Shown here one piece after another: positions 495 to 29,327 of a DNA stretch of 29,364 bases. The notes beneath the pieces were generated by a model. That model was not told where the DNA came from. It did not search any database and saw nothing but the letters and a program-made list of their open reading frames with translations. This stretch comes from a virus: IMG/VR virus record IMGVR_UViG_3300008267_000254, positions 1-29,364 of that record. One strand, given 5' to 3'. A program made the position numbers and the translations under genes. How positions within the stretch are numbered: position 1 is the first letter of the stretch; every line of letters starts with the position of its first letter.

Positions 495-953
495 ATGGCA
501 AATGGTGTTACATATGGTATTAATTTTCCTTTTAGAGATTCTTTTGATGGGAAATACCTTGATTTATCTAACTATTCTAATGAAGAAATTAGAAGTAGTT
601 TGATTCATTTACTTTTAACTAGAAAGGGTAGTAGATATTTTTTACCCGATTTTGGTACAAGACTATATGAATACATATTTGAACCATTGGACGGACCAAC
701 ATTCAATGACATTGAGATTGAGATTAAAGATTCTGTTGAGAAATATATTCCTAATTTACTTGTTACCTCGATTAAAGTAACTGGTATTGCGACTGAGGAG
801 GGGACTGATGTAACAACCGATGGTAATGTTGAGAATAATTCGTATGATTTACCGGGAATGTCGGAAAGAGAGTATACTGCAAAAGTAAGAATAGATTACT
901 CAATAACTTCAGATGTTTTTAGTTCTAAAGATTTTGTAATAATTAATATATAA
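495..953 (+). CDS. Baseplate wedge protein, T4 gp25-like (GPW/gp25 family)
   Basis: This 152-aa protein carries the gp25/GpW signature: residues ~32-64 read as IRSSLIHLLLTRKGSR, then PDFGTRLYEYIFEP, followed by an acidic helix (ND.EIEIKDSVEKYIP) and a beta-strand LLVTSIKV. Family members sit in the inner wedge of contractile-tail baseplates and nucleate sheath assembly. T4 gp25 is 132 aa; the extra length here is a loop at ~100-125 rich in Thr, Asp and Asn. The next gene, a gp6/J-like wedge protein, starts one base after the stop (TAA-A-ATG), which is the usual gp25-gp6 pairing in contractile injection machines. The start is supported by the TATTTAT box and the terminator just upstream. Confidence 0.92.
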   Translation: MANGVTYGINFPFRDSFDGKYLDLSNYSNEEIRSSLIHLLLTRKGSRYFLPDFGTRLYEYIFEPLDGPTFNDIEIEIKDSVEKYIPNLLVTSIKVTGIATEEGTDVTTDGNVENNSYDLPGMSEREYTAKVRIDYSITSDVFSSKDFVIINI

Positions 954-954
954 A

Positions 955-2790
955 ATGGCAAACAAACAAATTTCATATACAACAAGAGATTTTCAATCTA
1001 TAAGACAGGAACTTATAAATTTTGTAAGGACGTACTATCCCGATTTAATTCAGAATGTTAATGACGCTTCGGTATTTTCAGTGTTTTTAGATTTAAATGC
1101 TGCGGTTACTGATAACCTACACTACCATATTGATAGGAGTTTACAGGAAACGGTATTACAGTACGCTCAGCAAAGGTCTTCAATATATAATATTGCAAGA
1201 ACTTATGGTTTAAAAATTCCGGGACAAAGACCATCGGTAGCTCTTGTTGACTTTTCAATAACAGTTCCTGCATTTGGAGATAAACCTGACGAAACCTATT
1301 GTGGCATTTTAAGGAGAGGTAGTCAGGTTATCGGAGCGGGACAAGTATTTGAGACATTATATGATATCGATTTTACGTCAAGGTTCAATAATGAGGGTTA
1401 TCCAAACAGAAAAGTAATTCCTAATTTTGTTAATAATCAGTTAGTTAATTATACAATTGTCAAAAGAGAGCCAGTTGTTAATGGGATAACAAAAGTATTT
1501 AAAAAAGTTATAAATCAAGCTGACTCAAGACCATTCTTAGAACTTTTTTTACCTGAGAAAAATGTATTAGGGGTTACAAGTGTATTATTAAAAGATGGTA
1601 ATACCTATACAAATGTTCCTTCTGCTCAAGAATTTTTAGGTTCTACGAATAGATGGTATGAAGTTGAGGCTCTTGCTCAAGATAGAATTTTCATTGAAGA
1701 CCCTACAAAACCAAGTGATACTCCTGGTATTAAAGTTGGTAAGTATGTTCAAACTAGTAGTAGATTCATTACCGAATTTACACCTCAAGGGTTTATGAAA
1801 GTGACTTTTGGAGGTGGTAACACTTCGACAGACGAATTATTGAGAGAGTTCGCATTGAATGGTACACCATTAGATTTGTCTAAATATCAAAACAACTATA
1901 GCTTAGGTTCGGTATTAAAACCAAATAGTACTTTATTCATTCAATACCGAATTGGTGGTGGCTTAGGGACTAACGTTGGTGTGAATGTCATTAATCAGGT
2001 TGGAACTGTTAATTTTGCAATAAACGGTAGTTCTGCGAATATAAGACAACAAGTAATTAATTCCTTAACATGTAACAATATAACTGCTGCAATTGGTGGG
2101 GCAAATGTCCCTTCGGTTGAGGAAGTAAGGAATTTAGTGTCATTTAACTTTACGGCTCAAAATAGAGCGGTTACGGTAAATGATTATGAAACTTTAATTA
2201 GAAAAATGCCATCTCAGTTTGGGGCACCTGCAAAGGTTGCAATTACTGAAGAAGATAATAAGGTTAAAATTAACTTATTATCTTATGATGTTAATGGTAA
2301 ATTAACTAATGTTGTTTCAAACACTCTCAAAACTAACTTGTCAAATTATTTGTCAAATTACCGAATGATGAATGATTATATTTTCATATCTTCAGCTAAC
2401 GTCATTGACGTTTCATTTGATATCTCATTGGTGTTAGATGCAACACAAAACCAAGGAACTGTAATTACAAACGTGATTAATTTGATAAGTAATTACATGA
2501 GTCCTGCTAATCAAAACATGGGTGGTAATGTGTTTATATCCGAGATTAGAAGAATTATACAACAGGAAAATGGGGTAATCACCATCAGTGATTTGAAAGT
2601 GTTTAATAAAGTTGGAGGACTGTACTCGTCATCTCAAACATCTCAACGATATTCCGACGCAACAACTAAAGAAATTCAGTTAATCGACGATACTCTTTTT
2701 GCGGAACCTAACCAAATATACCAAGTAAGGTATACGAATACGGATATCCAAGTTAGGGTGAAAAACTTGTCAACTACGAATTACAGTTAA
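955..2790 (+). CDS. Baseplate wedge protein, T4 gp6 / baseplate J-like
   Basis: A 611-aa protein with an N-terminus typical of gp6-type wedge proteins: YTTRDFQSIRQELINFVRTY, then NDASVFSVFLDLNAAVTDNL with HYHIDRSLQETVLQYAQQRS and the region ARTYGLKIPGQRPS. In T4, gp6 dimers form the continuous ring of the baseplate and bind gp25 and gp7. The middle third has a beta-rich domain with a Gly-rich strand pair (VTFGGGNTSTDE, YRIGGGLGTN). The segment VEEVRNLVSFNFTAQNRAVT (NDYE following) is the family's conserved C-terminal element. Length is close to T4 gp6 (660 aa). Its tight spacing after the gp25-like gene supports the call. Confidence 0.9.
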   Translation: MANKQISYTTRDFQSIRQELINFVRTYYPDLIQNVNDASVFSVFLDLNAAVTDNLHYHIDRSLQETVLQYAQQRSSIYNIARTYGLKIPGQRPSVALVDFSITVPAFGDKPDETYCGILRRGSQVIGAGQVFETLYDIDFTSRFNNEGYPNRKVIPNFVNNQLVNYTIVKREPVVNGITKVFKKVINQADSRPFLELFLPEKNVLGVTSVLLKDGNTYTNVPSAQEFLGSTNRWYEVEALAQDRIFIEDPTKPSDTPGIKVGKYVQTSSRFITEFTPQGFMKVTFGGGNTSTDELLREFALNGTPLDLSKYQNNYSLGSVLKPNSTLFIQYRIGGGLGTNVGVNVINQVGTVNFAINGSSANIRQQVINSLTCNNITAAIGGANVPSVEEVRNLVSFNFTAQNRAVTVNDYETLIRKMPSQFGAPAKVAITEEDNKVKINLLSYDVNGKLTNVVSNTLKTNLSNYLSNYRMMNDYIFISSANVIDVSFDISLVLDATQNQGTVITNVINLISNYMSPANQNMGGNVFISEIRRIIQQENGVITISDLKVFNKVGGLYSSSQTSQRYSDATTKEIQLIDDTLFAEPNQIYQVRYTNTDIQVRVKNLSTTNYS

Positions 2791-2840: not shown

Positions 2841-5800
2841 ATGCCGAATTCATTTAGAATAAAGTCAGATTTAGGTACGGATAAGGTACTTCAGGTTAAA
2901 TTAGAACAGAATTTTGATTCACTTGAAATACTATCAATGTCAATTAATCCCGAACAAGAGTATCTTAGAACTTGTGCGGAATTTGGAGTCATTTGCGGTA
3001 GGGTATATGTGAACAATGGGTTTGGATTACCTAACGCTAGATTATCTATTTTTATACCATTAGAGGAGCAAGACGAGACAAACTCAATAATCTCGACATT
3101 ATATCCATATAAAGATTTTAGTACGGTTAATGAAGATGGGTATAAGTATAATCTATTACCATATACTTCATCTCACTCAGGTCACGTACCTGTTGGAACT
3201 TTTCCTGAAAGGAGTGATGTCTTAATTGACAAGTCAGTAATTGAAGTTTATGACAAATATTATAAGTTCACAGTAAAAACAAATGATGCTGGTGATTTTA
3301 TGATTTTCGGTGTCCCTGTTGGACAACACGATTTATTCATGCAGATTGACTTATCTGACATTGGACAATTTTCATTAACACCTCAAGATTTAATCAGATT
3401 AGGTTTGGCGACTGAGGACCAAGTGGACGGAACTAAATTCAAGTTCTCAGAAAACTATTCTGAGTTACCTCAAATTATTACTGTTACTAAAACAATACAG
3501 GTTGAACCTTTCTTCGGGGAACCTGAGGTTTGCAATTATTCGATAACAAGAACTGACTATGACTTGTCAACTATTGCAAATATTAAATTGCAACCTACCG
3601 CAGTTTTCATGGGGTCACTTATCTCTATTGATGATAAGAAGAAAATTGGTTCGGCGTGTAAAGTAAAATCAAAGGCAGGTCAGTTATGTGATATGACGAC
3701 AGGACCTGGTCAAATACTTGCGGTGAGACAAACAATATTTTCAGATGATAATGGATTACCAATACTTGAAGAATTTAGATTAGATAATGACGGTAAGGTT
3801 ATTGACCAAGATGGTACATGGGTATTAGAAGTACCGATGAATATGAACTATGTTTACACTGATGAATATGGACAACAAAGAGTTAGTAACAACCCTGATT
3901 TAGGAGTACCAACAAAGGGTAAGTATAGATTTAAAATCAAGTGGTTACAATCTCCACAATTATCAGATGAAGTTAAAAGGGCGTATTACTTATTACCTAA
4001 TATTAAAGAAAGAGGTTGGTCAAGTCCTGACAGTGACCCGATAGATAATGAGAGTAGTATCTCAACTGTGACAGAATCAAATCAACCAGTTCAAAACACC
4101 CAAGGTAACCCACTAACTCAAACAGTTTATATTACTTTAGCTGAAGAAACGGTTTATCGATTAAAATTTATTGAGAATGTTCAAAATTTGGTAATTACAG
4201 GACCTAATGGTACACAACTTAATGGTACAACATTAAGAAACCCTGGAACATATACTTTCACATTTGATGTTGAAACTTTAAGTAATCCATACACAATTGA
4301 GTTTGACGATGTTCCTATTGATGTATTTTTATTACAATCATCATACGCTTTTAGTTTAGATTGGAACGAATATGCGAATCCAACTGAGGCGATTAATTGT
4401 GTGGATACTTTTTATGATATGGTATATAATAAAGTGTATACTGTGTCTCAGTTAATTGATAGATACCAATCTAATCGATTTGCAGGTAACACACTAATTG
4501 TTAAAAAAATCACAGATTCGAATTGTGAAGGGACCTATAATACGTTCCCAACTAATGATGCAATATATAGAGTCGATGTATTATTTGTGATTATATCATT
4601 CTTTTTGGATTTCTTTAAGTTTTTGACAATACCTGTGATGTTAATATTACACGTTTTGGCGTTTGTTTTAACTAATGTTTTTTATCCGTTCATCATCGCG
4701 TTTTCAATTTATTTAGGGTTTCTTGCGACTTCATTTGGTATTGATGCTGCGGCTGCGATAGCGTCCCCTGTCCCTCAAGTTGCGTTATCCATCGCTTTAA
4801 TTGCCAAAACGGTTTTAATTACCGCCTTTGCAGTGTTAATCTTAGTGTATTCTGATAGAATAAAGGAGGCCTCAAAAAAATTGCTTAATATTGGGTTACC
4901 TTTAGTATTATATACAGATGACGGATGTGAAAGATGTAATTGTCAGGCAGAATATGGAGGAATTGACCAAACTGAAGATGACCCACAAAGTGTTGATGGT
5001 TCATCATTAGAAGATGCTGCTGCGGCTGTTATTGGAGTACCTGTTTACGACCCACAGACATCAATATTGATTGATGTTACAAGTACCAATCCATATAATG
5101 GATATACCCCTGACGAATTGTTAAATGTTGGTCAGATTTGGGCGGGATATTCATCTACAGGACAAGGTGCTGAATATACACTGAAACGTTTTCCTTGGAA
5201 CCCGTCAACCTATGGGTATTATTTCACATTAAATTTACCACCTGCTGAATTATATAATCTATTTAACACTAAATCAAAATATTATAATAACGTACAAAAT
5301 TTTGGAGATAGTAATATTGCGGGATGGAATCAAATCAGGGTTAACTGGATTCCACAAACTAATAACCCAAATACAAAACATCACTATGACAATGTAACAA
5401 TATTGGTATTAGATAAAAACAAAATCAGTACTCTACCGTCAGGTCAGATAGTATCATTCCAAGATTCAGCACAATCTGGAGATATAAATTTTGGACAAAG
5501 TACTGGTACAATTAATACCCCGTCTCAGATAACTGTAAGTTATTCTAATCCAGATGACTTGGGTAATACAACATTATCTACTAACTATAATATACCTCTT
5601 GAATATACTAGTGGTAATACCACAAATGTGGATAATGCATTCCCTGCTGACGTTGAATATTTTCAAGTAATAACTGGTATGACCATTGGTGATTTTGCGG
5701 CGATTGCTCCATCAGATGCAAATGAATTTTCATTTGGTGTTAGATATCTACAAAGATTAGATGGTATTGATGTTAATTATAGAAGATTGAGATATTATCG

Positions 5801-8456
5801 TCTTGATGTTTCAGAAAATCCGGATAATATATGTAATTCTTGTTGGTATGGTTATCAGCAAACTGCGATTAAAGATGCGGGATATAGTTTCTTATTTAAT
5901 GAGAATGATATTGAACGAAGTGCAATTACTAATTATGATGATTATGGGATTGTTATATTAATGAGAGGTGTAGACCCAAATTCACCAAGAATACCTCAAC
6001 AGATAGATTTGAGCAGAATATTTGGTGTTGAAACTTACCAGTGGAATTCGGATTACGTTGTAACTGGAAACTTTAAGATGAACATACCAATACAGTCGAC
6101 TAATGACTCTATGAAACCGGCATCACACTCAACTTCATCAAACCCTAATGTTTTAGATAAAAATGTATTTTTCCCAAGTTATAGTTTTACCTATACCGGT
6201 TTTAATACAGGTGGTGAAAGCTTACTTCCGGCTTATTATTCGGACACGGATGATGGGGGGATATTTGCAGCTTACGCACCGGTAAACGACCCTGGAGGAA
6301 CTGTTTATAGTGATGGAGGAACTAGTAACGTATTCACTAATACAAGTGCAGGGGTTTTATATGTAGATAATAGTGATATTTGTACGGCATCAATCTTTGC
6401 ACCGACAAACAATTATGTAAATGCTTTTACTAGATACTTTGCACTACCATATAGATTTAGTGCAACACAAGCGTTAAATTGTGGAGACCTAGGTGGATTT
6501 GTTGCGAAATGTTTTGATAATATGTACCCAAACACATGTCTTGGGGATACCGGAGATAATATCGGAAATGTTAGGAATATTACAGGTTATTATGGTGGAG
6601 AAATTGTTGCCGGAGCATCAATAATGTCTATGAGATTGATGAATGGTGGTGATGAAGACGGTGCCGGTGATTTTTATAATAGGGACATTCCTTATAATGA
6701 CCAAAGTAAGTATGGCTCACCGGCATATATATCTACATCATATATTAATCGAATAAATGCGAATAATTCGGCGTTTAATCCATGGACTTTAACCTCAAGT
6801 AGAATGGTATTTAGGTCGGACAGATTACCGACATCGACTAATGTTCAAAAAAATGGTAAGAACTATTATTTCCTACACCAAAACAGTACGTTCGCAATTT
6901 TTAAAATATCAGATGCTGGTGCTCAACAATCATTGATAAATGTCACTAATAACCCTACGACAAATAATGAAAATACTCAACATTTCTTTGGTAGCAATCC
7001 GGTGATAGAGTCATTGAGTGATTGTTCTAAAGCGGTTCCATTAGAATGTTATGATGTTGATGATGAAGGGCAACCAATTATTAAACCTAATTGTAATGAA
7101 CTGATGGACCCATCAGGTAAACAAAAGTATTTCTTAAAGGGTAATGGGTGTTATAATTTGGTATCCAAACCAATCACTACAATACCTAAAGATATTAAGT
7201 CTGTTGTTGAATGGATAACAAGACTTAAAATGAATTTGGCTGCTTGTTTTGAGATTATCTCACATACATTTAATAATCAATATGTTAATGGTACGTTATA
7301 CGTTTATCCGTTTAGAAATAACCGAGTATTTGATTCTCAAAATGAACCATATAGTATCTATTGTAAAGATTTGGTAATTTTACATCCATCCAATAATTTT
7401 TATTATAGAAGTAGTCCATTCTCAACAACATCACTTACAAATATTAATGATGGTTATTTCATTGGTAAAACTAATCCATTTGGTACCGATGATGGAGTTG
7501 GTAATAAAAAATACTTAGGAGCTCCTACAACAATACTTGACTTAGGACCAAGAGATGCTTTCTTACAAGAACTAGCATATTCTGATGATTATGATGGTTA
7601 TATAGTCGCAAAATTAAAACCAACTTCATTTCAAGAGATTACGGATATTTTGAATATATTCATATTAAGTAGGTTAATTAATACGTCGTTCTTACAACAG
7701 TTAATACCAATATCTGATGACCCTAATGAAGGTCAGTCTGACCCGACTATTAAAGCATTATTCTCTAATACAAGATGGAGAGATGATGGGGTTACATTAA
7801 TACCTGGATTTGTTGATGGTGATTATTCTCAAATGATTGCAATCAATTCCGAATTTGGTATACAAGAGTTCTCACCTGAGTCTTATAATGCAAGTTCGTT
7901 ATATTTCTCAAATGCTGATGAGTTCCCATATTTTGGTTTATTTATGCAAGGTAATAACCAAGACAGAGACTACATTACTCCGAGAAGAACAATATGGAAT
8001 GAGAATGCGCCGGTACCATCTTCACAATATGATTTTACAAATATTGCGGTTAATAGCCAGGAGGTTCCATACTATTTGTGGCATTTTACAGGTTTGAATA
8101 ATACTGACCCCGATACAATTTTCGGAACACAGTCTAACAATTATGCAACAACATACCCTGACAGTAGCGGAGAGTTTTCAAGTAAGTTCTTTAGTTTCAA
8201 ATATCAAGAATTGGATAGAATTAACTCATCTTCAAGATATACTCAAGTTGATGGTAACAATAGTTTCTATTATAAAGGTTACATTATTAATTATGACTCC
8301 AGCGGAGAACCAACCGAGATTAAACCAACAAATAATTATAGTCAAACAGTACTTGCAAATTCTCCATACCATTTTTATTTTGGTTTGAAAAAGGGTGCAA
8401 GTGCATTAGATAAGTTTTTCATAAAATACGTAGATACAAATATAACTTTTGAGTGA
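2841..8456 (+). CDS. Giant baseplate-cluster structural protein with internal membrane segments (possible gp7-position protein)
   Basis: At 1871 aa this is the largest gene of the window. The N-terminal ~200 residues contain a carboxypeptidase-regulatory-like beta fold split by an insertion: GRVYVNNGFGLPNARLSIFI near residue 54, resuming at TNDAGDFMIFGVPVGQHDLF. Residues ~578-672 are strongly hydrophobic, with about three or four predictable membrane-spanning stretches (for example TIPVMLILHVLAFVLTNVF, IIAFSIYLGFLATSFG and ALIAKTVLITAFAVLILVY), followed by a charged segment and a C696-x2-C699-x-C701 cluster. Another CxxC lies at 998/1001. The remaining ~1100 residues are Asn/Tyr/Ser-rich and beta-like. 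Directly downstream of gp25-gp6-like genes, it occupies the place of gp7 in T4-type orders, but I cannot demonstrate homology. The next gene starts inside its last codons. Confidence 0.8.
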   Translation: MPNSFRIKSDLGTDKVLQVKLEQNFDSLEILSMSINPEQEYLRTCAEFGVICGRVYVNNGFGLPNARLSIFIPLEEQDETNSIISTLYPYKDFSTVNEDGYKYNLLPYTSSHSGHVPVGTFPERSDVLIDKSVIEVYDKYYKFTVKTNDAGDFMIFGVPVGQHDLFMQIDLSDIGQFSLTPQDLIRLGLATEDQVDGTKFKFSENYSELPQIITVTKTIQVEPFFGEPEVCNYSITRTDYDLSTIANIKLQPTAVFMGSLISIDDKKKIGSACKVKSKAGQLCDMTTGPGQILAVRQTIFSDDNGLPILEEFRLDNDGKVIDQDGTWVLEVPMNMNYVYTDEYGQQRVSNNPDLGVPTKGKYRFKIKWLQSPQLSDEVKRAYYLLPNIKERGWSSPDSDPIDNESSISTVTESNQPVQNTQGNPLTQTVYITLAEETVYRLKFIENVQNLVITGPNGTQLNGTTLRNPGTYTFTFDVETLSNPYTIEFDDVPIDVFLLQSSYAFSLDWNEYANPTEAINCVDTFYDMVYNKVYTVSQLIDRYQSNRFAGNTLIVKKITDSNCEGTYNTFPTNDAIYRVDVLFVIISFFLDFFKFLTIPVMLILHVLAFVLTNVFYPFIIAFSIYLGFLATSFGIDAAAAIASPVPQVALSIALIAKTVLITAFAVLILVYSDRIKEASKKLLNIGLPLVLYTDDGCERCNCQAEYGGIDQTEDDPQSVDGSSLEDAAAAVIGVPVYDPQTSILIDVTSTNPYNGYTPDELLNVGQIWAGYSSTGQGAEYTLKRFPWNPSTYGYYFTLNLPPAELYNLFNTKSKYYNNVQNFGDSNIAGWNQIRVNWIPQTNNPNTKHHYDNVTILVLDKNKISTLPSGQIVSFQDSAQSGDINFGQSTGTINTPSQITVSYSNPDDLGNTTLSTNYNIPLEYTSGNTTNVDNAFPADVEYFQVITGMTIGDFAAIAPSDANEFSFGVRYLQRLDGIDVNYRRLRYYRLDVSENPDNICNSCWYGYQQTAIKDAGYSFLFNENDIERSAITNYDDYGIVILMRGVDPNSPRIPQQIDLSRIFGVETYQWNSDYVVTGNFKMNIPIQSTNDSMKPASHSTSSNPNVLDKNVFFPSYSFTYTGFNTGGESLLPAYYSDTDDGGIFAAYAPVNDPGGTVYSDGGTSNVFTNTSAGVLYVDNSDICTASIFAPTNNYVNAFTRYFALPYRFSATQALNCGDLGGFVAKCFDNMYPNTCLGDTGDNIGNVRNITGYYGGEIVAGASIMSMRLMNGGDEDGAGDFYNRDIPYNDQSKYGSPAYISTSYINRINANNSAFNPWTLTSSRMVFRSDRLPTSTNVQKNGKNYYFLHQNSTFAIFKISDAGAQQSLINVTNNPTTNNENTQHFFGSNPVIESLSDCSKAVPLECYDVDDEGQPIIKPNCNELMDPSGKQKYFLKGNGCYNLVSKPITTIPKDIKSVVEWITRLKMNLAACFEIISHTFNNQYVNGTLYVYPFRNNRVFDSQNEPYSIYCKDLVILHPSNNFYYRSSPFSTTSLTNINDGYFIGKTNPFGTDDGVGNKKYLGAPTTILDLGPRDAFLQELAYSDDYDGYIVAKLKPTSFQEITDILNIFILSRLINTSFLQQLIPISDDPNEGQSDPTIKALFSNTRWRDDGVTLIPGFVDGDYSQMIAINSEFGIQEFSPESYNASSLYFSNADEFPYFGLFMQGNNQDRDYITPRRTIWNENAPVPSSQYDFTNIAVNSQEVPYYLWHFTGLNNTDPDTIFGTQSNNYATTYPDSSGEFSSKFFSFKYQELDRINSSSRYTQVDGNNSFYYKGYIINYDSSGEPTEIKPTNNYSQTVLANSPYHFYFGLKKGASALDKFFIKYVDTNITFE

Positions 8457-10215
8457 TTTAGGTAAAATATCGTTTTTAAAAGGGTCGGCAAGATATAAGG
8501 GTTCGACTGAGCAAAGTATTGGATTACAGGTTCCGTTAGTTAATACTATGAAGGAACTTGAGGAGTTTGATAGAAATATAAATGTTGATTTAGCGGATTT
8601 ATATGATGCTGAGAGACAGAGGTCTCCCTACATATATCCCATGGCAAAATTCAGTATTATTTTTGAAAATGCTTATTCGGGTACTACTCCGACAAATTCT
8701 AATCCGTATCCACCGTTTAATAATAATTTATATTACATTAATGAGAATTATTATAAACAGTTACAAATTCAGTCGAATGGTGCGGTCATACCATGGGGTG
8801 GATTACCACAATACAATGAGTTTGATTTTATTCGAACTGATTATGATGTTACTGGATACACATTAAATAGTCAGACTGACCCTCCTCATTATGTTCCTAT
8901 GGCGAGAGATGCGGCTAAACTAAATTGGTCATTTTATATCTCCTATCCATTTAGTAGTACGACATCGCAAGTAATGTTTTATACTAGTGAGGCTGGTAAT
9001 ACATCCTTTTTTACTGCCGGTGACGGAATACCATTTATTATGTTTAAAACATCGTATAATGGAAAGTCGGTATGGCAATTTAAGTGTCAAATACCTCACG
9101 GACTTAAAAACGGGGAAAGTGTAATTACTAGTGTGCAATCCAACTCAATTAACGTATTTGATGTTTATAGTTTTGGTGATGGGACTCAAGATTCGGAGAT
9201 GTATATTTTCAATATATATGATATTGGATTTACTAACTTTACTGATACTTTGGTCGGAACTTTTAAACGAGTTGTTAATAAAGAATATCTTATCGAAAGT
9301 ACGTCTAGATATTATGTAAGATTACATAAAATAATAGACACTCCAAACAATGCTAATTTAACTTACGCCGGATTTGAAAACAATGCGTTTAGAACTGTAA
9401 AGAAGTTTATATCTCCACAACTATCTCCAAATTTTGTTTCAAGAGTTGCAACAAAAGAAGGTAGTGATTCATATAACTTATCATTTACAGATAATGTCGA
9501 TATTACTGGGTTATATGATAATTTAAATCGACCTATTACTGAGTTATATTTTACAGTTGTAAATCGAGGTAGATTTGGATGGTTTAATAAACCAACAGGA
9601 AACCCTTTGAATATTGCATTAAAACATGGGTGGTCATTTAATTTAGGTCCTCAGTTGAATACTTGGTGGGATAATGTTAATACAAATAACTTGACCAATG
9701 TAACCACAACGTCATTTACTAATTCGTATCAGGGAAGAACATTTTATTACAATAATGAATATAATGTCGGCGATATAATAAAAGGTGATTTTTGTGAGTT
9801 TAATGATTTTACACAAGAAGAGAGAGTTATTTCCGAATATTACCATAAGTTCACATTTAATTCTGACAATTTTGTAATAGGAGGTGGTACACCAACTAAC
9901 CAACTCGGATATTACTATAAACCACACTACAAGTTCCAATTAAAAGTATTTTCTCCATATATTGAGGAGAGTGATGGTCAGGTAATTGCGGGTTTACCTA
10001 ATTATGCTTACTATAAAAATGCTACACAAGAGTTTATTTGGAGGGACATATATCCATTCGGTTTTATTGATGAAAACGGAAACGGAGTTGATTATCCATT
10101 TATGAACAATAAACATTATCCGTATAATAATTTTACTTTCAGAATTATACCTGAGGGTACAAATATTATCTCGGCTCCAAGTATATCTGACCCATTGATT
10201 GATGATTGCGAATAA
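8449..10215 (+). CDS. Structural protein of the baseplate cluster, function unknown
   Basis: A 588-aa protein that I do not recognise. The start is a TTG at 8449 that overlaps the previous stop by 8 nt (reading SDLGKISFLKGSARYKGSTE); no earlier ATG fits, so translational coupling is likely. Residues ~20-60 (GLQVPLVNTMKELEEFDRNI, then DLADLYDAERQRSPYIYPMA) look like a conserved helical head. The rest is rich in Tyr, Asn and Phe with short beta-like segments and no signal peptide or membrane helix, the usual make-up of baseplate or fibre-attachment proteins. The C-terminus (NNFTFRIIPEGTNI then SAPSISDPLIDDCE) overlaps the start of the next gene. Structural role is inferred from position and composition. 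Confidence 0.75.
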   Translation: MSDLGKISFLKGSARYKGSTEQSIGLQVPLVNTMKELEEFDRNINVDLADLYDAERQRSPYIYPMAKFSIIFENAYSGTTPTNSNPYPPFNNNLYYINENYYKQLQIQSNGAVIPWGGLPQYNEFDFIRTDYDVTGYTLNSQTDPPHYVPMARDAAKLNWSFYISYPFSSTTSQVMFYTSEAGNTSFFTAGDGIPFIMFKTSYNGKSVWQFKCQIPHGLKNGESVITSVQSNSINVFDVYSFGDGTQDSEMYIFNIYDIGFTNFTDTLVGTFKRVVNKEYLIESTSRYYVRLHKIIDTPNNANLTYAGFENNAFRTVKKFISPQLSPNFVSRVATKEGSDSYNLSFTDNVDITGLYDNLNRPITELYFTVVNRGRFGWFNKPTGNPLNIALKHGWSFNLGPQLNTWWDNVNTNNLTNVTTTSFTNSYQGRTFYYNNEYNVGDIIKGDFCEFNDFTQEERVISEYYHKFTFNSDNFVIGGGTPTNQLGYYYKPHYKFQLKVFSPYIEESDGQVIAGLPNYAYYKNATQEFIWRDIYPFGFIDENGNGVDYPFMNNKHYPYNNFTFRIIPEGTNIISAPSISDPLIDDCE

Positions 10216-12100: not shown

Positions 12101-13003
12101 ATGGCAACTGGCAATTACGGAACTATAAGACCATCAGACGTTAGTCCTGATGATATCGAGATAATAATGAATTATACACCATCGAGAGATGTTACAAGTA
12201 ATTTTGTTTTAAAAAAATTAGATAGTTCTAATATTAGACCTTACTTTAATAACACATCAACAGGGGGTAACACTAATGAAATATTAGGTGGATTATACAA
12301 CTTAAATTTACCATCTGAGGAGTTTAATGCGTTAGGTATCTACACGTTAATGATTAGACCTGCACAGATAAGAACATCGATAACAGATTGTGGAGTTCTA
12401 AGTTCATTACCAAACGTTAAGGGTATTATTATTGATTTAAATAACGTACCATCCGAGTATAGAAACAAGTTTATTAACCAACGACTTGTTGGATTTAGAG
12501 TGGAGTATTTAAACCCAGACGGGTCCAAATCTCCAAACATGTTTAGAATCATCACATCTAACTTTTTTTGTGAACCTGTAACTCAAAACGTTACTAATAC
12601 TATTTTAAAGTCAACAAGATATGTTTATACCGACACTGTAACTAACTTGATGTTTTGTACATTATCACCATCATCTTCACCAACAAACAGACCAAATGCA
12701 ACACCAAATATTGGAGTTGCGGGACAAGATATTATAATCACCAATACATTTTTTAACCCAACGATAGTCGAGGTTGAAGTGGTTGACCAAGATATATCAA
12801 CATTGGCAATTGCACTTTATGGTAATCAAACTAAGTCGATTGAAGATGGTATCTACACTATTTACGACTCAAGCAATAACATTTACAAACAATATAACTT
12901 ATATGAAATTCGTGACCAATTTAACGAGTTGTTGTATGAAGTTAGACAAGATAGAGGTAATAACATTGATTTTAGTAAAAATTTTGAGAATATCATAGCA
13001 TAA
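12101..13003 (+). CDS. Conserved-looking structural protein, function unknown
   Basis: A 300-aa protein beginning ATGNYGTIRPSDVSPDDIEI. The N-terminal ~110 residues look like a compact beta-rich domain (LGIYTLMIRPAQIRTSITDC). The middle contains GIIIDLNNVPSEYRNKFINQ and a variable Ser/Pro/Asn linker at ~198-215 (SPSSSPTNRPNATPN). The C-terminal segment (YNLYEIRDQFNELLYEVRQD) is helical with charged heptad-like spacing. I do not recognise a family. It follows a promoter-like box and shares a TAATG overlap with the next gene, so the two are co-translated. A baseplate or tail-fibre connector role is likely from context only. Confidence 0.72.
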   Translation: MATGNYGTIRPSDVSPDDIEIIMNYTPSRDVTSNFVLKKLDSSNIRPYFNNTSTGGNTNEILGGLYNLNLPSEEFNALGIYTLMIRPAQIRTSITDCGVLSSLPNVKGIIIDLNNVPSEYRNKFINQRLVGFRVEYLNPDGSKSPNMFRIITSNFFCEPVTQNVTNTILKSTRYVYTDTVTNLMFCTLSPSSSPTNRPNATPNIGVAGQDIIITNTFFNPTIVEVEVVDQDISTLAIALYGNQTKSIEDGIYTIYDSSNNIYKQYNLYEIRDQFNELLYEVRQDRGNNIDFSKNFENIIA

Positions 13004-15975
13004 TGGCAAAGTACACATGTCCACCACAATCAGATTCAGGTTCAGGTACATTCTCTGACAATTTAGTCGGTTTACAAATTACCGATGGTGGAGGACTTAC
13101 GCAAGGTAATTTCGCATTTACAACATCAGTAGTTCAAAAAACAAATCGAAGTTTTGATACAGGTGTTTTCTCGGCGCCAATTACTTTGAGTTCGTTATCG
13201 GTAGGAAGTGAAGCTCAGTCTCAGAACATTTTTGATAAGAATTTTAGAATATACCCTAATTTTGACCAAACAAATGTTTTAAATTTTGTTAACTATGGTT
13301 CATTAGTTAAAAGATTTGAGGCTGCGGTTACAAACATTATTAATTTTTTTCCGGCTGGATTAGAAATTTCTAAGTATAGACAAGACTTTACATCGGGTAA
13401 TACTGCGACTGGAATCACGTTTACTCAAAATGAGAATATTACGACATTTACAATACCTATTGAGATTATACGTAATCCATTTGGTATTGATTTTTCTCAA
13501 AATGCCGAGATAAACCTAAACAGTTTATCAAGTCCTGTTTCACCATATCGTAATTTAAAAACTAAGTATAGGAGTTACATTTTAGATATTAATAATAATC
13601 AATACGAGATTAGTTTATTAACACCGTCGTCATCTGTAAGTGCTGGTACGTTAACATTATCTGTAATTGGTAATCCATTCTCAGGTTCGTCGACAAGTAG
13701 TGATGATTACGTAATTCGACTTAACGATACTGTGGTTAACGAAGTGTTTAATCTCGAACTTGATGAGGTTGAGGAGATACTTTTAAATCGGTATTCATAT
13801 CCAAAATATACTGCAAAATTCCAAGTTCCCACTGAAGGAGATGACGGAACTCAGTTCATTAGTTTCCAAAATTTAACTTGGCCAATGGACGGTCAGTGGA
13901 ACATCGATATTCGAACTTCATCTTTTACATTTTACTTAGAGAATCTAAACGAGATTGGAAGTAATTTTGATGTATTTAAAACTAACTTAGTCTCAAGATT
14001 TTATGTTACAGATTCATTCCAAGAATTCGATACTCCTGATTTAAAGGTTGATAAGGTTTTAAAAATTTATGGTAGGAGTTTTGATGAAAACAAAAAGTAT
14101 ATTGATGCAATACAATATGCTAATTCTGTAAATTACAATATTGGTAATGACATACCGTCAAACCTTGTGGTTAATTTAGCTCAAACTTTAGGTTGGAGTA
14201 CTAACATATCGCCAATCACTAATGTTGGTTTTTTAAGTTCAATATACGGTACGACTCAAAATGCTTTTCCTGCTTACTCAACACCACAAACAATTAATGA
14301 TTTAAATAACCAATACTATAGGAACTTAATATTAAATTCAGCGTACTTGTTTAAATCTAAGGGAACTAGAAAGAGTATTGATTTTTTGATGGAGAATATT
14401 GGAGTACCTGATGCATTACTTGAATTTAACGAGAATGTTTATTTGGCGGATAGTAAAATAGATATTGAACAATTTAATACGTATTTTGCTCAGATTGATG
14501 GAGGTACGTATATTCCGACAACTCCTACCTATAACCCTAATAATTTATTTACGATTAGAGGTATTCAGTATACCGCTTACACATCGTCAACACAAGTAAT
14601 TAATGTTGATACAACATCAGGAGATTACCCTATCGATGAACAAGGTTACCCTACAAACCCAACTATAACTGACGATTTTTATTTTCAGAAAGGTGAGGGA
14701 TGGTTTGAATCGACTCCGAGTCATCGAAGTCCTCAGGTCATTGATAACAATACAAGTGTGTTTACCGGCTCTAATCCATCGGTTCAAACCACACTTGAAG
14801 GTTTCACATATGGTCAAAAATATTTAGACAGATTTAGAGAATTCCCATATATGGATTTAGGGTTCTCTATTAAAAAACAAGTGGACAATAAAAAAAGTTG
14901 GATAGACAGTAATGAAGGAAACCGAATTGGAACCGACAATATATTCGACGCTTATTACTACCAAAGCGATGATAGGTTAACTCTTAATGTTAAGAATGTT
15001 GATTTATTTTTGAATCCAGCTCAAGCAATTGCTTATGATGTTTGGTACGTATCGAGAACAAAAAATTACCCTATTCCAATTACAGGGTTATCATCTCCGT
15101 ATCCACAAGTTGGAGGAGTTGACTCGACATTTATTAACCCACAACCACAAAACGAGAGTTTCTTTAAGTTCTACAACACATTTTGGAGTGAGATGATTAA
15201 TGTTAGAAACAGACAATATTCATCTGATGGCAAAACTAGCGGGTACCCAACATTACAGTCAATATTTTGGAAGTACTTGACAATGAATGAAGATGTTGGT
15301 TTAACTAATAATAACTTTAATTACCAAAATATGATTAATTATGTTAATGGTCTTGGTGATTTTTGGATTAGATTGGTTGAACAATTTGTTCCTGCTACTA
15401 CAATATGGAACACGGGTACTAAGTTTGAGAACTCGGTTTTCCATAGACAAAAATTTGTATATCGTAGACAAAGAGGTTGTCAAGTTTCCACAATTACAAC
15501 ACCGTCTGCGGTGGTGACAGGACCAATAGTACCTGAAGTCACTATACCATCGTCGACTGTGACTTATCCATCAGTTCCTGTGGTAGATTGTACGGGAACT
15601 CAAACCTCATGGTATTATGTAATTAGTTATAAGACTAAATACATTTATAATGGTCAAATTTACAACGTGCAAATTACGTCAAACAATAGTGAGATATACA
15701 ATTGTGGTACTCAATTTACGACAGAAGAATGGGAAAATTTTGTAAACGATTTCATTATTGATGGAAATGTCTCAATAATAACAGTCACAAATACTGTTAC
15801 TGATGAAATAACAAATCCACAATCAATCCAAGATACTGGATTTGAATTTACATTAAATAGTGATGGTAATATTGTCTCAACAGTTATTAATCCTGAATTT
15901 GAGCCTGTTAATACTCCTGTTGCAGCATATAATAACTACGGATTAACTTATTCATTCCAAGCAATAATTTCATAA
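13003..15975 (+). CDS. Large tail/baseplate protein with a tail-protein-I-like segment
   Basis: A 990-aa protein starting at the ATG that shares a base with the preceding stop. Residues ~330-480 contain a helical segment with YYRNLILNSAYLFKSKGTRK, then SIDFLMENIGVPDALLEFNE. This resembles the sKGT.....ll...G.p signature of phage tail protein I (P2 gpI / TIGR02242-like) families, which join the baseplate wedge to receptor-binding fibres. The rest is Asn/Tyr-rich beta structure, with a helix near residue 810 (LGDFWIRLVEQFVPATTIWN). Toward the C-terminus a Pro/Thr/Val linker (~825-860: VTGPIVPEVTIPSSTVTYPS) leads into a small domain with YYVISYKTKYIYNGQIYNVQ. The next gene, an adhesin, starts one base after the stop. 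The call rests on the KSKGT segment and context. Confidence 0.72.
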   Translation: MAKYTCPPQSDSGSGTFSDNLVGLQITDGGGLTQGNFAFTTSVVQKTNRSFDTGVFSAPITLSSLSVGSEAQSQNIFDKNFRIYPNFDQTNVLNFVNYGSLVKRFEAAVTNIINFFPAGLEISKYRQDFTSGNTATGITFTQNENITTFTIPIEIIRNPFGIDFSQNAEINLNSLSSPVSPYRNLKTKYRSYILDINNNQYEISLLTPSSSVSAGTLTLSVIGNPFSGSSTSSDDYVIRLNDTVVNEVFNLELDEVEEILLNRYSYPKYTAKFQVPTEGDDGTQFISFQNLTWPMDGQWNIDIRTSSFTFYLENLNEIGSNFDVFKTNLVSRFYVTDSFQEFDTPDLKVDKVLKIYGRSFDENKKYIDAIQYANSVNYNIGNDIPSNLVVNLAQTLGWSTNISPITNVGFLSSIYGTTQNAFPAYSTPQTINDLNNQYYRNLILNSAYLFKSKGTRKSIDFLMENIGVPDALLEFNENVYLADSKIDIEQFNTYFAQIDGGTYIPTTPTYNPNNLFTIRGIQYTAYTSSTQVINVDTTSGDYPIDEQGYPTNPTITDDFYFQKGEGWFESTPSHRSPQVIDNNTSVFTGSNPSVQTTLEGFTYGQKYLDRFREFPYMDLGFSIKKQVDNKKSWIDSNEGNRIGTDNIFDAYYYQSDDRLTLNVKNVDLFLNPAQAIAYDVWYVSRTKNYPIPITGLSSPYPQVGGVDSTFINPQPQNESFFKFYNTFWSEMINVRNRQYSSDGKTSGYPTLQSIFWKYLTMNEDVGLTNNNFNYQNMINYVNGLGDFWIRLVEQFVPATTIWNTGTKFENSVFHRQKFVYRRQRGCQVSTITTPSAVVTGPIVPEVTIPSSTVTYPSVPVVDCTGTQTSWYYVISYKTKYIYNGQIYNVQITSNNSEIYNCGTQFTTEEWENFVNDFIIDGNVSIITVTNTVTDEITNPQSIQDTGFEFTLNSDGNIVSTVINPEFEPVNTPVAAYNNYGLTYSFQAIIS

Positions 15976-15976
15976 T

Positions 15977-18112
15977 ATGCCTTTAGAATTTAACATATTA
16001 TTAACAGGGGATTGTCAGAGTACCAACTCAGGAGCAATGTCCGTTTCATTTACCGGAGCGTCACCATATTACATTACATGGGTTAATCCGACAACTTACG
16101 CATCTGCGACTACATCAAGTAACTACTCAATAGGTTCATTATCAGCTGGTAGTTACTCTTTTAATGTTACGGATACTACTAACATTAATACGTTGATTAA
16201 TTTTAATGTGACATCATCGTCAACTTTGAGTATAACATCAACAGTAAATACTACTTGTGGTAATAGTAATGGGGAGTTGACTGTAACGACACCAACTAAT
16301 TACGGAACAAATACGATTAATTTGTATCAAAATGGTTCACTACTTTCAGGAATTACAACACAGGCTAATGGATATACATTTAGTAATTTAGGTGAAGGTG
16401 TTTATTATGCGACTTGTACGAATTACGGAGGTTGTTTCGGGACTTCAGAAAACACTGTAATTTATAACTCACCAACATTGGACTATGGGTTTTATATTGT
16501 TGATAATCCGTCTTGTTCTTTAACTAATGGTAAAGTTTATATTACAGGTTTAACGGGGTCATCTCCATTCACATACGAGTGGTCAGGGTTTATAACTGGA
16601 GAAACAACCAATAGTTTCATCACAGGTTTAACGAATAATAATTATACTTGTACAGTTACGGATTCTTATGGATGTTCAGTTACAAAAACTGCAACAGTTA
16701 ATAACGCATTACCAATATCGATTATTAATACAAGTCAGACTCCTCCATCATGTTCAGGCGCTACAGGTTCACTTACTTATAGTATTACAGGTGGAACTGG
16801 ACCTTATTATTACCTATTGAGTAATGGTGATTCACAAGTGAGTTATGATACCCTTGTAACATTCAATAACTTGCCTTCAGGGAGTTATACTTTAACTGTT
16901 ACGGACGTTGCGTTATGTCAAAAATCATTATCGGTTAATTTATTAACTCCTAATTCATTCTCAGTTGTTGGTGTTAATAAAGGTAATGCCACCTGTGGTT
17001 TTACGACTGGATTTATAAATATAAGTGTTATTGGAGGGGCGACCCCATATACTTATACCTTAACTAATTTGTCGGGGTATAGTGAAGTACAAACTACATC
17101 TTTAAACTCTACAACTTTTAGTTCATTATCTGCAAACACATATAGTTTAAACATTACGGATTCTTTAGGTACTTGTTCATATACAAGTTCTATTGAGATA
17201 TTAAACGAGAATCCATTTACAATCACTACAACACCTACAAGTACATATTGTTACAGAAACAAAGGACAAATAACTGTTGATGTTACTGAGGTTAACCCTT
17301 CCACTGCAACTACCAATTTTTATACTTATTCATTATCTAACGGTTCTTCGTCATTTGCTACTACTGCTCAGACCTATACATTTTCCGGGTTAACCTCAGG
17401 ACCGTATACTGTGACGGTATCGAATCAAAACGCATGTAATCAAGTTAGTAATACGTCAGTTGACGGATTAACACCTATTAATTTTGTATTGTACAGTACA
17501 GGTTGTTTAAATGGTAGTGGAGGTACAGTATCTGCAATCATATTTGATGAAGGTCCATTTGACTTTACTTGGAGTGATAATGTAAATGGACAAACAGGTG
17601 TTTATATCTCAGGGTTGACCGCTGGTACATACACACTAACTCTAAGCGGTACGAACAACTGTAATACAACACAACAAGCAACAGTAGATTGTACTCCGAG
17701 TGTGTCTACAACAGTGAGTGGGGAAATCACCGGAGGGACGACTACAATTTCAACGTCATTCTTAAATTATAAAACAATGTTGACTCAAGGGTTTTATGAT
17801 TTAACTGTCGGACATGATTATTGTAAATTAAATAATGCGGTCTTTAGATGTGTTGTTGAATTAGATGGTGTAACATATTCTAATCCATTCTACACAACGG
17901 TATCATTGAATGATTATCCGAATGTTAGTGGATTTTCAACAGCATTAAGTTACGTGTTATCAACAATACCTTATTTGGATACTGTTTATGTTGACCCTGT
18001 AACTAATCAAGTAACTATTGAGTCTGCGGTTGTTGGAGGTGTTGAATATTATAAAGACGAGACAGTTACTGTATCAACTCAGATAACTTATAATATATCT
18101 TGTTTGACGTAA
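15977..18112 (+). CDS. Tail adhesin with seven SprB-like repeats
   Basis: A 711-aa protein built mainly of seven tandem ~81-86-aa modules whose leading cysteines fall at residues 13, 94, 180, 259, 340, 425 and 510. The typical unit runs C...(N/T)G.(I/V)T(I/V)..GG..P(Y/F)(T/Y)Y.L, then (F/Y).(I/N)(G/L)L..G.Y(T/S)(L/V).(V/I)TD..GC. This is the SprB-repeat type pattern found in gliding-motility adhesins of Flavobacterium and other Bacteroidetes surface proteins. A distinct C-terminal domain (~575-711; YDLTVGHDYCKLNNAVFRC, then SGFSTALSYVLSTIPYLDTV) lacks the repeat. It probably acts outside the cell as a fibre or receptor-binding component. It follows the tail-protein gene after one base. Repeat calling is by eye, and exact unit borders are approximate. 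Confidence 0.82.
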   Translation: MPLEFNILLTGDCQSTNSGAMSVSFTGASPYYITWVNPTTYASATTSSNYSIGSLSAGSYSFNVTDTTNINTLINFNVTSSSTLSITSTVNTTCGNSNGELTVTTPTNYGTNTINLYQNGSLLSGITTQANGYTFSNLGEGVYYATCTNYGGCFGTSENTVIYNSPTLDYGFYIVDNPSCSLTNGKVYITGLTGSSPFTYEWSGFITGETTNSFITGLTNNNYTCTVTDSYGCSVTKTATVNNALPISIINTSQTPPSCSGATGSLTYSITGGTGPYYYLLSNGDSQVSYDTLVTFNNLPSGSYTLTVTDVALCQKSLSVNLLTPNSFSVVGVNKGNATCGFTTGFINISVIGGATPYTYTLTNLSGYSEVQTTSLNSTTFSSLSANTYSLNITDSLGTCSYTSSIEILNENPFTITTTPTSTYCYRNKGQITVDVTEVNPSTATTNFYTYSLSNGSSSFATTAQTYTFSGLTSGPYTVTVSNQNACNQVSNTSVDGLTPINFVLYSTGCLNGSGGTVSAIIFDEGPFDFTWSDNVNGQTGVYISGLTAGTYTLTLSGTNNCNTTQQATVDCTPSVSTTVSGEITGGTTTISTSFLNYKTMLTQGFYDLTVGHDYCKLNNAVFRCVVELDGVTYSNPFYTTVSLNDYPNVSGFSTALSYVLSTIPYLDTVYVDPVTNQVTIESAVVGGVEYYKDETVTVSTQITYNISCLT

Positions 18113-18138: not shown

Positions 18139-19137
18139 ATGGGAGCGTTTACTATTACGACATTAGGTGGGGACCCACCATATCAAATATATGTTTGTGA
18201 CATTTATGAATTTAATTGTTCATTGGTTACAACATATGAAAACTATATACCACCGGCAACTACTTTCTACGCTCCGAGTCAGTTTGACACGGCTCCAATT
18301 ATATTGGTAAAGGTTATTGACCGAACAGGTTGTATCTATAGTGAACAACACATGTGTGTTACACCGACTCCTACACCAACAGTCACTCCAACACCCGCTA
18401 CACCGACTCCAACACCATCATTCACACCAACACCATCTCTAACACCGTCTATTACACCTACAATGTCGTTAACTCCTACAGTAACAGTAACGCCTACAAT
18501 AACACCATCTATTACTCCTACTCAGACAGTTACTCCTACAAATACGGTAACTCCTACACCTACAGTTACATCTGAAGGACCATCGGCCTACTTATTTATT
18601 GAGCCTTACAGTGGTTCGTCAAGTATTGGTAGTTATATGTATAGTTTAGGTTCATCATTCTATGGATTTACAAATGGTACAAGACCTAGTGAGTCCGCAT
18701 CAACATTCCAAGATGACATGGTTAAGTATGTTAATTACTCAGGTTGGACAAATGGAGAATTCCCGAGATTAATTAAAGGTAGAGTAAACACAACAAGTGG
18801 TGGGTTTGACACATACGGTAATCCAATCATTGCGTATAATTTACAAACAGTTGTTGTTCCTGAGGACACAGTGTTATCTAAAGGGTGGTATACTTGGATA
18901 ATACCTACAATAATGACAAATAGTCAAAAGCAAGTTGAGATTGATTTAGGTATTGTGAATCCAAATGTATTTACAAGTGTAAAGATGGAGGAAACAATAT
19001 ATAATAATACCTTCACATATAGTGGACCAACAATAAGTCATCAAACATATAGAGTGTACACTTCATATCCATCTAAAACGTTTGAACTTGACAATATTGA
19101 TAATTTATATTTTAGAGGTAGTGTGTTAGAACCATAA
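18139..19137 (+). CDS. Adhesin/fibre protein: SprB-like N-terminal module, Pro/Thr linker, C-terminal beta domain
   Basis: A 332-aa protein in three parts. Residues 1-74 are a single Cys-containing module ([18 protein letters not shown], then [13 protein letters not shown]). It is homologous by eye to the complete small proteins encoded at 19992 and 28134 and to single SprB-like repeats. Residues ~75-144 are a low-complexity stalk of TPTPT/TPSIT/TVTPT units. Residues ~148-332 are an unrecognised, probably receptor-facing domain ([20 protein letters not shown] ... [20 protein letters not shown]). The linker resembles that of the 831-aa adhesin on the opposite strand. A promoter-like box lies 5 nt upstream and the next gene starts two bases after the stop. 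A tail-fibre role is inferred. Confidence 0.78.
18361..18570 (+). repeat. Degenerate 6-nt-period Pro/Thr-coding repeat tract
   Basis: An in-frame tract of ACxCC(A/T)/ACACC-type units encoding T-P-T-P, T-P-S-I and T-V-T-P motifs. It is the inverted counterpart of the larger tract at 27400-27890. For example, TCTATTACTCCTACT at 18508-18522 is the exact reverse complement of 27619-27633, and ACACCGTCTATTAC at 18442-18455 matches the reverse complement of 27626-27639. Confidence 0.85.
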
Positions 19138-19991: not shown

Positions 19992-20219
19992 ATGGTTGCA
20001 TCAATAGACATAACAGACGTTAACGGAACATTACCATTTAGTGTGTATGTTTGTGATGAATATTTTAATAATTGTCAGTTAACTTATACGATTACTGACC
20101 CTGTATATTGGCCCGTGCAGTTTGATATACCGCAAGAATTATTCGGGTCTAATACAGTAATATTAAAAATTGTTGATTCTGTTGGTTGTGAAACCTTTAA
20201 AGTTTTCTCTTGTTCTTAA
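19992..20219 (+). CDS. Small single-module SprB-like protein (75 aa)
   Basis: A 75-aa protein made of one module: NGTLPFSVYVCDEYFNNCQL, a strand ending in P.QFDIP, then NTVILKIVDSVGCETF and a terminal Cys. The G..P(Y/F).(V/I)Y(V/L)C ... C ... K.(V/I)D..GC pattern is shared with the N-terminus of the 18139 gene product and with the 73-aa protein encoded at 28134. It resembles one SprB-like repeat without the rest. The gene follows the fibre gene after 3 nt, so expression is probably coupled. It may be a soluble or fibre-bound accessory; no signal peptide or membrane helix is visible. The open frame is short but the homologous trio makes it credible. Its stop overlaps the convergent resolvase gene. 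Confidence 0.75.
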   Translation: MVASIDITDVNGTLPFSVYVCDEYFNNCQLTYTITDPVYWPVQFDIPQELFGSNTVILKIVDSVGCETFKVFSCS

Positions 20220-20233
20220 TTTTTTAAATTAAG
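20215..20233. terminator. AT-rich hairpin between convergent genes (possible bidirectional terminator)
   Basis: CTTAATTT-TTT-AAATTAAG is a perfect 8-bp inverted repeat placed exactly on the overlapping stops of the plus-strand 75-aa gene (20217-20219) and the minus-strand resolvase gene (20216-20218). With no other intergenic space, it is the only candidate to separate the convergent transcripts. The stem is AT-only apart from its ends, so termination strength is uncertain. Confidence 0.4.
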
Positions 20234-20809
20234 GTAAGATAAGACTACAGTATATGCGTCGGTCATATCAAAATTCTCCTTTTTTAGAGTATTGTTTCTT
20301 GTATATAACCATTGTATTTGAGGTTCTCTTTTAGATACAAGTTCCCATATAATCATTTTTTTATCTACGTCTTTAGGGTAACCTCCAAATAGAACATGTT
20401 TACCTTTCTCATTTTTTTGTACGAGCTCAGGGAATGCTAGTTTTCTTGAATTATATGTTGAAACGTATTCGGGAACAACACCTAATACATCATAAACTTC
20501 TTTAGATATTAATGTGTTATATCTTAATAAAGTTGCAATTGTGTAAACATTATTACTGTTTAATAGGGGTTCCTCAATAACTACTCGGATTACACCGATA
20601 CCTTTATATTCCTCAAGCTTCTTTCTAAATAAAGTGGATTTATTAATTAATTCTTCCATTTTATTGTCTGAAGTTGGTTTTGGTCTCGGAGAGATGTGAG
20701 TTAATTCTAACAAATCTCTTGAAGATAAATCAAAAAGTGCAACACCAATTGTTTTGGTTGACACGTCTAAACCTAAAATCTTAGGTGAGTTTTTTATACT
20801 TTTCGCCAT
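20216..20809 (-). CDS. RuvC-like (RNase H-fold) Holliday-junction resolvase / nuclease
   Basis: A 197-aa protein with the RuvC/RNase H-fold signatures. Residues 11-24 read ILGLDVSTKTIGVA with the first acidic residue D15. A second strand at 75-81 reads RVVIEEP (E79/E80). The C-terminal helix carries D181 and D184 (ENFDMTDAYTVVLSYL), fitting the final catalytic acidic pair. RuvC-like enzymes cut four-way junctions in a metal-dependent way, and phage versions process replication and recombination intermediates before packaging. The ATG at 20809 follows a 43-nt AT-rich gap after the tail-fibre gene start-to-stop order on the minus strand. It is unusual among fibre genes: replication functions otherwise lie at the window's right end. 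Other RNase H-fold nucleases are possible; the family is clear, the exact substrate is not. Confidence 0.85.
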   Translation of the reverse strand: MAKSIKNSPKILGLDVSTKTIGVALFDLSSRDLLELTHISPRPKPTSDNKMEELINKSTLFRKKLEEYKGIGVIRVVIEEPLLNSNNVYTIATLLRYNTLISKEVYDVLGVVPEYVSTYNSRKLAFPELVQKNEKGKHVLFGGYPKDVDKKMIIWELVSKREPQIQWLYTRNNTLKKENFDMTDAYTVVLSYLNLKN

Positions 20810-28424: not shown

Positions 28425-29327
28425 ATGGATATGGATGAAAATGAAGTTTTAGTTGACATGTTACGGGACTTGTTCGGCAAGGACAAGCACTATTATGAGT
28501 CGAAAGGACAAATATCATTTAATTGTCCTTATTGTGACGACGGAAAGAATAAGGGGAATTTGGAGGTTAATATCAACGAGCACGTATACAAGTGTTGGAG
28601 TTGTGCGGAAACAAATGGAACCCATGGAGTGTTAGGTAAATTAGTTGATATTTTTGGAACAAAAAGACAAAAGAAAATTTACGACGTATTCAAACCCGAA
28701 GAATATAAAACAAGGGAGAAAGAAAGACCGAAGTTAAAGTTACCAAAAGAATTCATTTCTTTCAAAGACGTAAACCCATTACACATTCCACATAAGGAGG
28801 CGTTAAAGTATATTAAATCTCGTGGTATTACAGACCAAATGATTGAAAAGTACAATATTGGATTTGCGTGTGAAGGAGAATACATGGGAAGAATAATTGT
28901 CCCATCATACGGGATGGACGACGAGATGAACTATTTTGTTTCAAGAGCTTGGTTTAAAACAAAAAACAAATATAAAAATCCAGAGTTTCCAAAAGAGACA
29001 ATCATCTTCAATGAGAAACTAATTGACTGGGAAAAACCGATTTATATATGTGAAGGTGTTTTTGACGGATTCTTTACACCAAACCCAGTTATACTTTTAG
29101 GAAAGGTACTTCATGATTTATTGTTTGACGCGATATATAATAAGGCTAAGTCAGATGTTATAATATGTTTGGACGAAGATGCTTGGAACAACGCAAAAAA
29201 ATTATACAACACTCTTAATGGAGGTAAGTTAAGAGGAAGAGTTAAAATTATAAAATTACCAAAAGACAAAGATGTTGCCGAACTAAGGGGTAACATTGAA
29301 GATTATTTTTATCAAATGAATTATTAA
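28425..29327 (+). CDS. DNA primase, DnaG/T4 gp61-like (zinc finger + TOPRIM)
   Basis: A 300-aa protein combining an N-terminal zinc-binding element and a C-terminal TOPRIM domain. Zinc ligands are C34, C37, C57 and C60 (NCPYCDDGKN ... YKCWSC), the last in place of the His of CHC2 fingers. The middle (KEALKYIKSRGITDQMIEKY then NIGFACEGEYMGRIIVPSYG) matches the DnaG catalytic core. The TOPRIM Glu is E210 (IYICEGVFDGFF), and the DxD pair D250/D252 (DVIICLDEDA) is followed by a KDKDVAE element. It would synthesise RNA primers for lagging-strand replication. Its length suits T4 gp61 (342 aa) with no helicase domain. ATG at 28425 is the first of two nearby starts (the other two codons later). Family is certain; partners lie outside the window. 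Confidence 0.93.
   Translation: MDMDENEVLVDMLRDLFGKDKHYYESKGQISFNCPYCDDGKNKGNLEVNINEHVYKCWSCAETNGTHGVLGKLVDIFGTKRQKKIYDVFKPEEYKTREKERPKLKLPKEFISFKDVNPLHIPHKEALKYIKSRGITDQMIEKYNIGFACEGEYMGRIIVPSYGMDDEMNYFVSRAWFKTKNKYKNPEFPKETIIFNEKLIDWEKPIYICEGVFDGFFTPNPVILLGKVLHDLLFDAIYNKAKSDVIICLDEDAWNNAKKLYNTLNGGKLRGRVKIIKLPKDKDVAELRGNIEDYFYQMNY

Follow-up and report, generated by a model that had tools for sequence, protein, structure and literature searches.

A strongly hydrophobic, predicted helical block of membrane grade was found inside a giant protein encoded in the baseplate gene cluster of a contractile-tailed phage, and it is kept by nearly all members of a protein family that has no match in the annotated collections searched, except for one uncharacterised predicted structure (BFVD A0A8S5LA66). 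Hydrophobic helices at the tail tips of non-contractile phages are already known, and so are membrane helices of contractile injection systems; a near-universal hydrophobic helix within a giant protein of the baseplate cluster in contractile phages is a new variation on these. The near-universal presence of the block suggests that the baseplate touches or enters a bacterial membrane, the crossing of which by contractile-tailed phages after sheath contraction is a poorly understood step. As hundreds of members encode a segment of membrane grade at the same fixed position of the baseplate cluster, the block offers a specific part for follow-up.

The window, meaning the whole stretch of DNA that was analysed, comprises 29,364 bases of one strand of IMG/VR record IMGVR_UViG_3300008267_000254. 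A baseplate gene cluster lies at its start, in which a gp25-like baseplate wedge protein of 152 aa (495..953, plus strand; Pfam GPW_gp25 5.1e-11, PHROG 261 1.1e-16) is followed by a gp6/J-like baseplate wedge protein of 611 aa (955..2790, plus strand; PHROG 219 5e-25, Pfam Baseplate_J 3.2e-7) and, directly downstream of the latter, by the ORF of the giant protein (1871 aa; 2841..8456, plus strand). With gp25- and gp6/J-type wedge genes adjoining the giant gene, the cluster has the composition of a contractile-tail cluster. None of the PHROGs or Pfam families was matched by the giant protein itself. The next gene downstream encodes 588 aa (8449..10215, plus strand) and is a conserved neighbour.

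Relatives of the giant protein were recovered at 33-86% identity by scanning viral contigs, and an alignment-based scan gave at least 598 confirmed stretches. Bacterial assemblies supplied five matches, of which three carried the label Bacteroidota or Cytophagales, and a second large branch surfaced when one of the five (L098) was used as the start. The window's branch is referred to here as freshwater and the second branch as gut/rumen, which are working labels that we infer, the contig names themselves stating no habitat. Contigs of the second branch (L098 and L177-L265) are up to 412 kb long and encode giant proteins of up to ~3000 aa with variable C-terminal extensions. In the window's protein, residues ~1455-1871 (7203..8453, plus strand) form a C-terminal module conserved in the alignment (VNGTLY..PF and FYFGLKKG motifs), which occurs in shorter relatives too, as seen in the sequences of L098 and L099.

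Gene order was also compared. In 240 of the 255 comparisons, which cover both branches, no more than 600 nt separate the end of an upstream gp6 relative from the giant gene, and the 588-aa downstream gene was detected with an iterated profile in 110 freshwater-branch and 65 other loci. The order gp25, gp6, giant gene in both branches supports a baseplate-associated structural role, and this order points to the giant protein being a component of the virion.

A search of 50,697 phage records, including by tblastn, returned no relative of the giant protein and no cultured member. A profile search of solved structures returned no relative either, and scanning relatives against PHROGs produced nothing convincing. 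The BFVD structure, from Myoviridae sp. ctPuP5, aligned at 39% identity over 396 columns (E 2.9e-39), and is on that alignment a likely family member. A related gp6 is carried by distant phages, cultured or metagenomic (Flavobacterium immuto, Microcystis Mel-JY01 and LR756508); no relative of the giant protein could be detected in them, and when the stretches beside their gp6 genes were read no such hydrophobic neighbour was seen. The large phages that make up the family have been met almost exclusively in metagenomes.

The hydrophobic block occupies residues 575-669 (4563..4847, plus strand), which make up the top 95-residue hydropathy window of the protein, with a mean Kyte-Doolittle (KD) value of 1.86; the 95-residue maxima of 200 shuffles had a mean of 0.47 and were at highest 0.93. 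Transfer energy along the protein was also determined in 19-residue windows, using the Wimley-White octanol scale. Windows that start at residues 573-623 were favourable without a break (minimum -13.7 kcal/mol) and those starting at 640-654 were favourable again (-7.3 kcal/mol), the next best place in the protein being at ~1599-1608 (-8.5 on the same scale). In this phage the block consists of one stretch of ~46 residues and one of ~20 residues, both of membrane grade, and with such strongly favourable windows and almost no charge it has the character of an integral membrane segment, which may insert into a bilayer. The sequence-only reading had put three or four long hydrophobic stretches at residues ~578-672, followed by a cysteine cluster at 696-701, and the hydropathy peak is indeed there (residue 578 begins at nt 4572 and residue 701 finishes at nt 4943). 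That number of stretches agrees with the hydropathy of the window's protein but is not conserved, as freshwater relatives have between one and four non-overlapping 19-residue membrane-grade windows. What stays constant is the opening stretch of ~40-46 residues and, in the freshwater branch, the cysteine cluster behind the block. A conserved stretch of ~46 residues is long for a single bilayer helix.

A strong hydrophobic stretch (19-residue KD > 1.9) was present in ~94% of 255 relatives from two deep branches, and only 0.8% of 964 other ORFs in the related loci, all on the plus strand and of at least 250 aa, reached the same value. By the sequence-only reading, absence of the block from homologues would have counted against it; the reverse was found, and the relatives rule out that it is a peculiarity of one phage. 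The shuffles, together with the neighbouring ORFs used as controls, rule out chance or composition as its source. Two short relatives of 728-747 aa (L097 and L100) are without the block and may mark a block-less form of the family. The position of the block is likewise kept. In both branches a Y[TS]V...R motif and a P-x-N cap come a short way ahead of it, the hydrophobic stretches spanning residues ~575-670 in the branch of the window and ~455-520 in the other, and its median offset from the Y[TS]V motif is 38 residues in the 183 proteins for which both were found.

Residues 577-626 (4569..4718, plus strand) hold the conserved hydrophobic helix of ~40-46 residues and the near-invariant H604, which is 99% conserved in the freshwater-branch alignment (88 sequences, mutually at most 90% identical). 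When compared with the closest relative (L001), dN/dS over these residues was 0.014, the lowest measured in the gene, versus 0.038 over residues 1-400 and 0.17 over residues 401-500, all of these ratios being rough because synonymous divergence exceeds 1. Columns 580-612 of the freshwater alignment are 3% charged and show one narrow polar stripe with 100-degree periodicity; the periodicity was seen in the second branch also. The hydrophobic columns of the block swap I, L, V and F freely, their entropy being 2.06 bits where the hydrophobic columns within residues 1-540 have 1.07. Such exchange resembles that of lipid-facing or loosely packed helices, although it can be taken as a hint only because the polar columns of the block are likewise more variable than elsewhere, so that the variability is partly general. 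The polar stripe would suit a shielded oligomeric bundle as well.

Residues 1-760 were modelled as a monomer with AlphaFold2 using the 88 sequences (mean pLDDT 76, pTM 0.62). Well-predicted beta domains cover most of residues 44-540, and are followed by a low-confidence linker (540-578, pLDDT 31-39), by predicted helices at 580-641 and 645-682 (pLDDT mostly 72-81) that lie outside the beta domains, and by a beta-hairpin at the cysteine cluster. Residues 44-248 (2970..3584, plus strand) are predicted as a transthyretin/carboxypeptidase-regulatory-like beta-sandwich with insertions (pLDDT mostly 83-94), which superimposed on human carboxypeptidase N with a VIA-align Z of 9.6 (2.2 A, 79 residues) and, despite this fold match, gave no sequence match in Pfam. 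The likeness to the transthyretin/CarboxypepD_reg-like fold is confined to these residues and is uninformative on the hydrophobic block. Further beta domains are predicted for residues 253-540 (3597..4460, plus strand), their strands lying ahead of the hydrophobic insertion.

A shorter relative from the second branch (L226) was modelled over residues 1-959, also as a monomer (pTM 0.83), and has a predicted 30-residue helix at 459-488 (pLDDT ~79-89) followed by a disordered stretch. This helix is placed beside the fold with fair confidence and might pack against other parts of the protein. Segments flanking the block on both sides matched a second beta-sandwich structurally, at a modest Z of about 4.8, so that this domain seems to carry the hydrophobic element as an insertion. 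The matches from fold searches were chiefly to beta domains, and no baseplate wedge structure was among the matches listed. The buried core that the sequence-only reading had named as counter-evidence is not seen in the model of the window's protein, where the helices stand past a disordered linker and clear of the beta domains; for the second-branch helix burial is possible.

The cysteine cluster reads CERCNC, a CxxCxC arrangement at residues 696-701 (4926..4943, plus strand) just as had been noted, and C696, C699 and C701 are invariant in the 88 sequences. Cys562 (4524..4526, plus strand), just before the block, is invariant in alignments of 23 and of 88 sequences, and would complete a candidate metal site with the cluster. 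Conservation of the cluster is less than strict in the second branch. Among 39 full-length relatives more cysteines are invariant, at positions 45, 231, 273, 283, 520, 1395, 1437, 1469 and 1508, and other disulfide or metal sites are therefore possible in the giant protein.

Hydrophobic segments of this kind have been described in the tails of two non-contractile phages, and the likeness drawn here rests on those descriptions. The pb2 protein of T5 has a hydrophobic stretch of 46 residues, compatible with two transmembrane helices and proposed to form a channel, which in pb2* is proposed to enter the outer membrane as two helices (PMC10038345). In lambda, gpI has two hydrophobic tail-tip helices (H1/H2) that are thought to be stored and then inserted into the outer membrane after opening, and the tip also has a four-cysteine iron-sulfur site, in gpL (PMC11101478, PMC10721106). 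A stretch of ~46 residues inside a tail protein, as judged from gene order, is likewise present in the giant protein. The differences are that T5 pb2 is a tape measure in the tube lumen, whereas the protein described here is a baseplate-cluster protein encoded next to gp6; that gpI is a small tail-tip protein with the cysteines in a separate protein; and that the spacing of C562/C696/C699/C701 differs from that of gpL C173/C182/C205/C212. Among contractile machines, the Anabaena tCIS has baseplate-attached parts (Cis12/Cis13) that reach a membrane, Cis13 by a membrane helix (PMC8894136). That helix, however, is found at the C-terminus of a tail-fibre-like trimer and provides an anchor in the thylakoid of the producer, whereas the block at 575-669 of 1871 residues is internal. 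Judged by title and abstract, nothing relevant came from a literature search for membrane segments predicted in the baseplates of jumbo phages.

By analogy with T5 pb2 and lambda gpI, we tentatively favour a virion-borne, initially shielded hydrophobic hairpin that would insert into the host membrane after contraction. The giant protein would be a structural component of the contractile-tail baseplate, and an insertion emerging from its beta-sandwich domains would form a helical hairpin that is membrane-active. Within the virion this hairpin would lie shielded inside the baseplate or against partner subunits, and in the freshwater branch invariant C562 and C696/C699/C701 might clamp its base, perhaps around zinc or an iron-sulfur cluster. 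Baseplate rearrangement and sheath contraction would then release the hairpin, which once inserted could keep the tail tube in register, or several copies could help to make the DNA passage with their polar stripes facing one another. Points against this reading are the length of the conserved stretch, the segment number that varies from one to four, the polar stripe that a shielded bundle would explain equally, the partly general variability of the block and the second-branch helix that may be packed on its own protein. If this holds, the idea of tail-tip helices as a membrane passage, taken from T5 and lambda, extends to contractile phages. The broader proposal is put forward with greater reserve: that this is an undescribed family of large baseplate proteins with its own membrane-inserting hairpin, and that the passage through a host membrane is made or lined by the baseplate as well as by the tube or spike.

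The same helix could instead be packed as the hydrophobic centre of an oligomer in the baseplate, or lie permanently under partner subunits, and never meet lipid. Its striped pattern is compatible with a bundle, the second-branch helix is predicted beside the fold and nearly all family members keep the block, but its hydrophobic residues are freely interchangeable rather than tightly specified, and the window's block lies past the linker. A charge of ~3% across 33 columns is furthermore extreme for soluble bundles. We regard a permanently buried element as somewhat less probable than insertion, the second-branch model being the main point in its favour. A different role, in which the protein is a membrane-bound assembly factor or envelope protein merely encoded within the baseplate cluster, is most improbable: relatives of known function are lacking and the virion placement comes from gene order, but the gene keeps a constant position after gp6 in both branches, and the very large beta-domain architecture with variable extensions is typical of tail proteins.

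The block could also lie in the inner membrane of the producing cell, with baseplates assembling there as do the membrane-held baseplates of tCIS and T6SS. The membrane helix of Cis13 holds the tCIS on thylakoids, and with truncated Cis13 most float free (PMC8894136); in Bacteroidota, the docking partner of the T6SS baseplate is TssN, a protein with five membrane helices (PMC10781749). The hydrophobicity of the block makes co-translational insertion plausible, but no signal peptide was seen by eye at the N-terminus of the giant protein, and a virion protein lodged in the membrane would need extraction before release. A segment number that differs between relatives, from one to four, could moreover flip the side on which the ~1170 C-terminal residues lie, if topology mattered. 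Anchoring, for which tCIS and T6SS are good precedents, fits less easily with this varying number, and we consider it unlikely. Both insertion after contraction and anchoring during assembly had been proposed in the sequence-only reading; they are still among the leading explanations, and neither sequence nor the monomer models separate the two from each other or from permanent burial.

Other features of the window were recorded alongside the baseplate cluster. A protein of 990 aa (13003-15975) has a middle part (YYRNLILNSAYLFKSKGTRKSIDFLMENIGV) that by eye resembles P2 gpI / T4 gp7-type proteins, and no PHROGs or Pfam match was obtained for it. Proteins with SprB-repeat or Hoc-like beta repeats are encoded on opposite strands at 15977-18112 and 23085-25622 (complement); SprB repeats are known from Bacteroidota gliding adhesins. 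Two Thr-Pro rich long-repeat proteins (TPTPT...), both matching PHROG 15511, are also on opposite strands, at 18139-19137 and 25636-28131 (complement), and the Thr-Pro repeat region coincides with a GC-skew peak near 26-28 kb. Beside the tail genes are a RuvC-like resolvase (20216-20809, complement) and a DNA primase (28425-29327).
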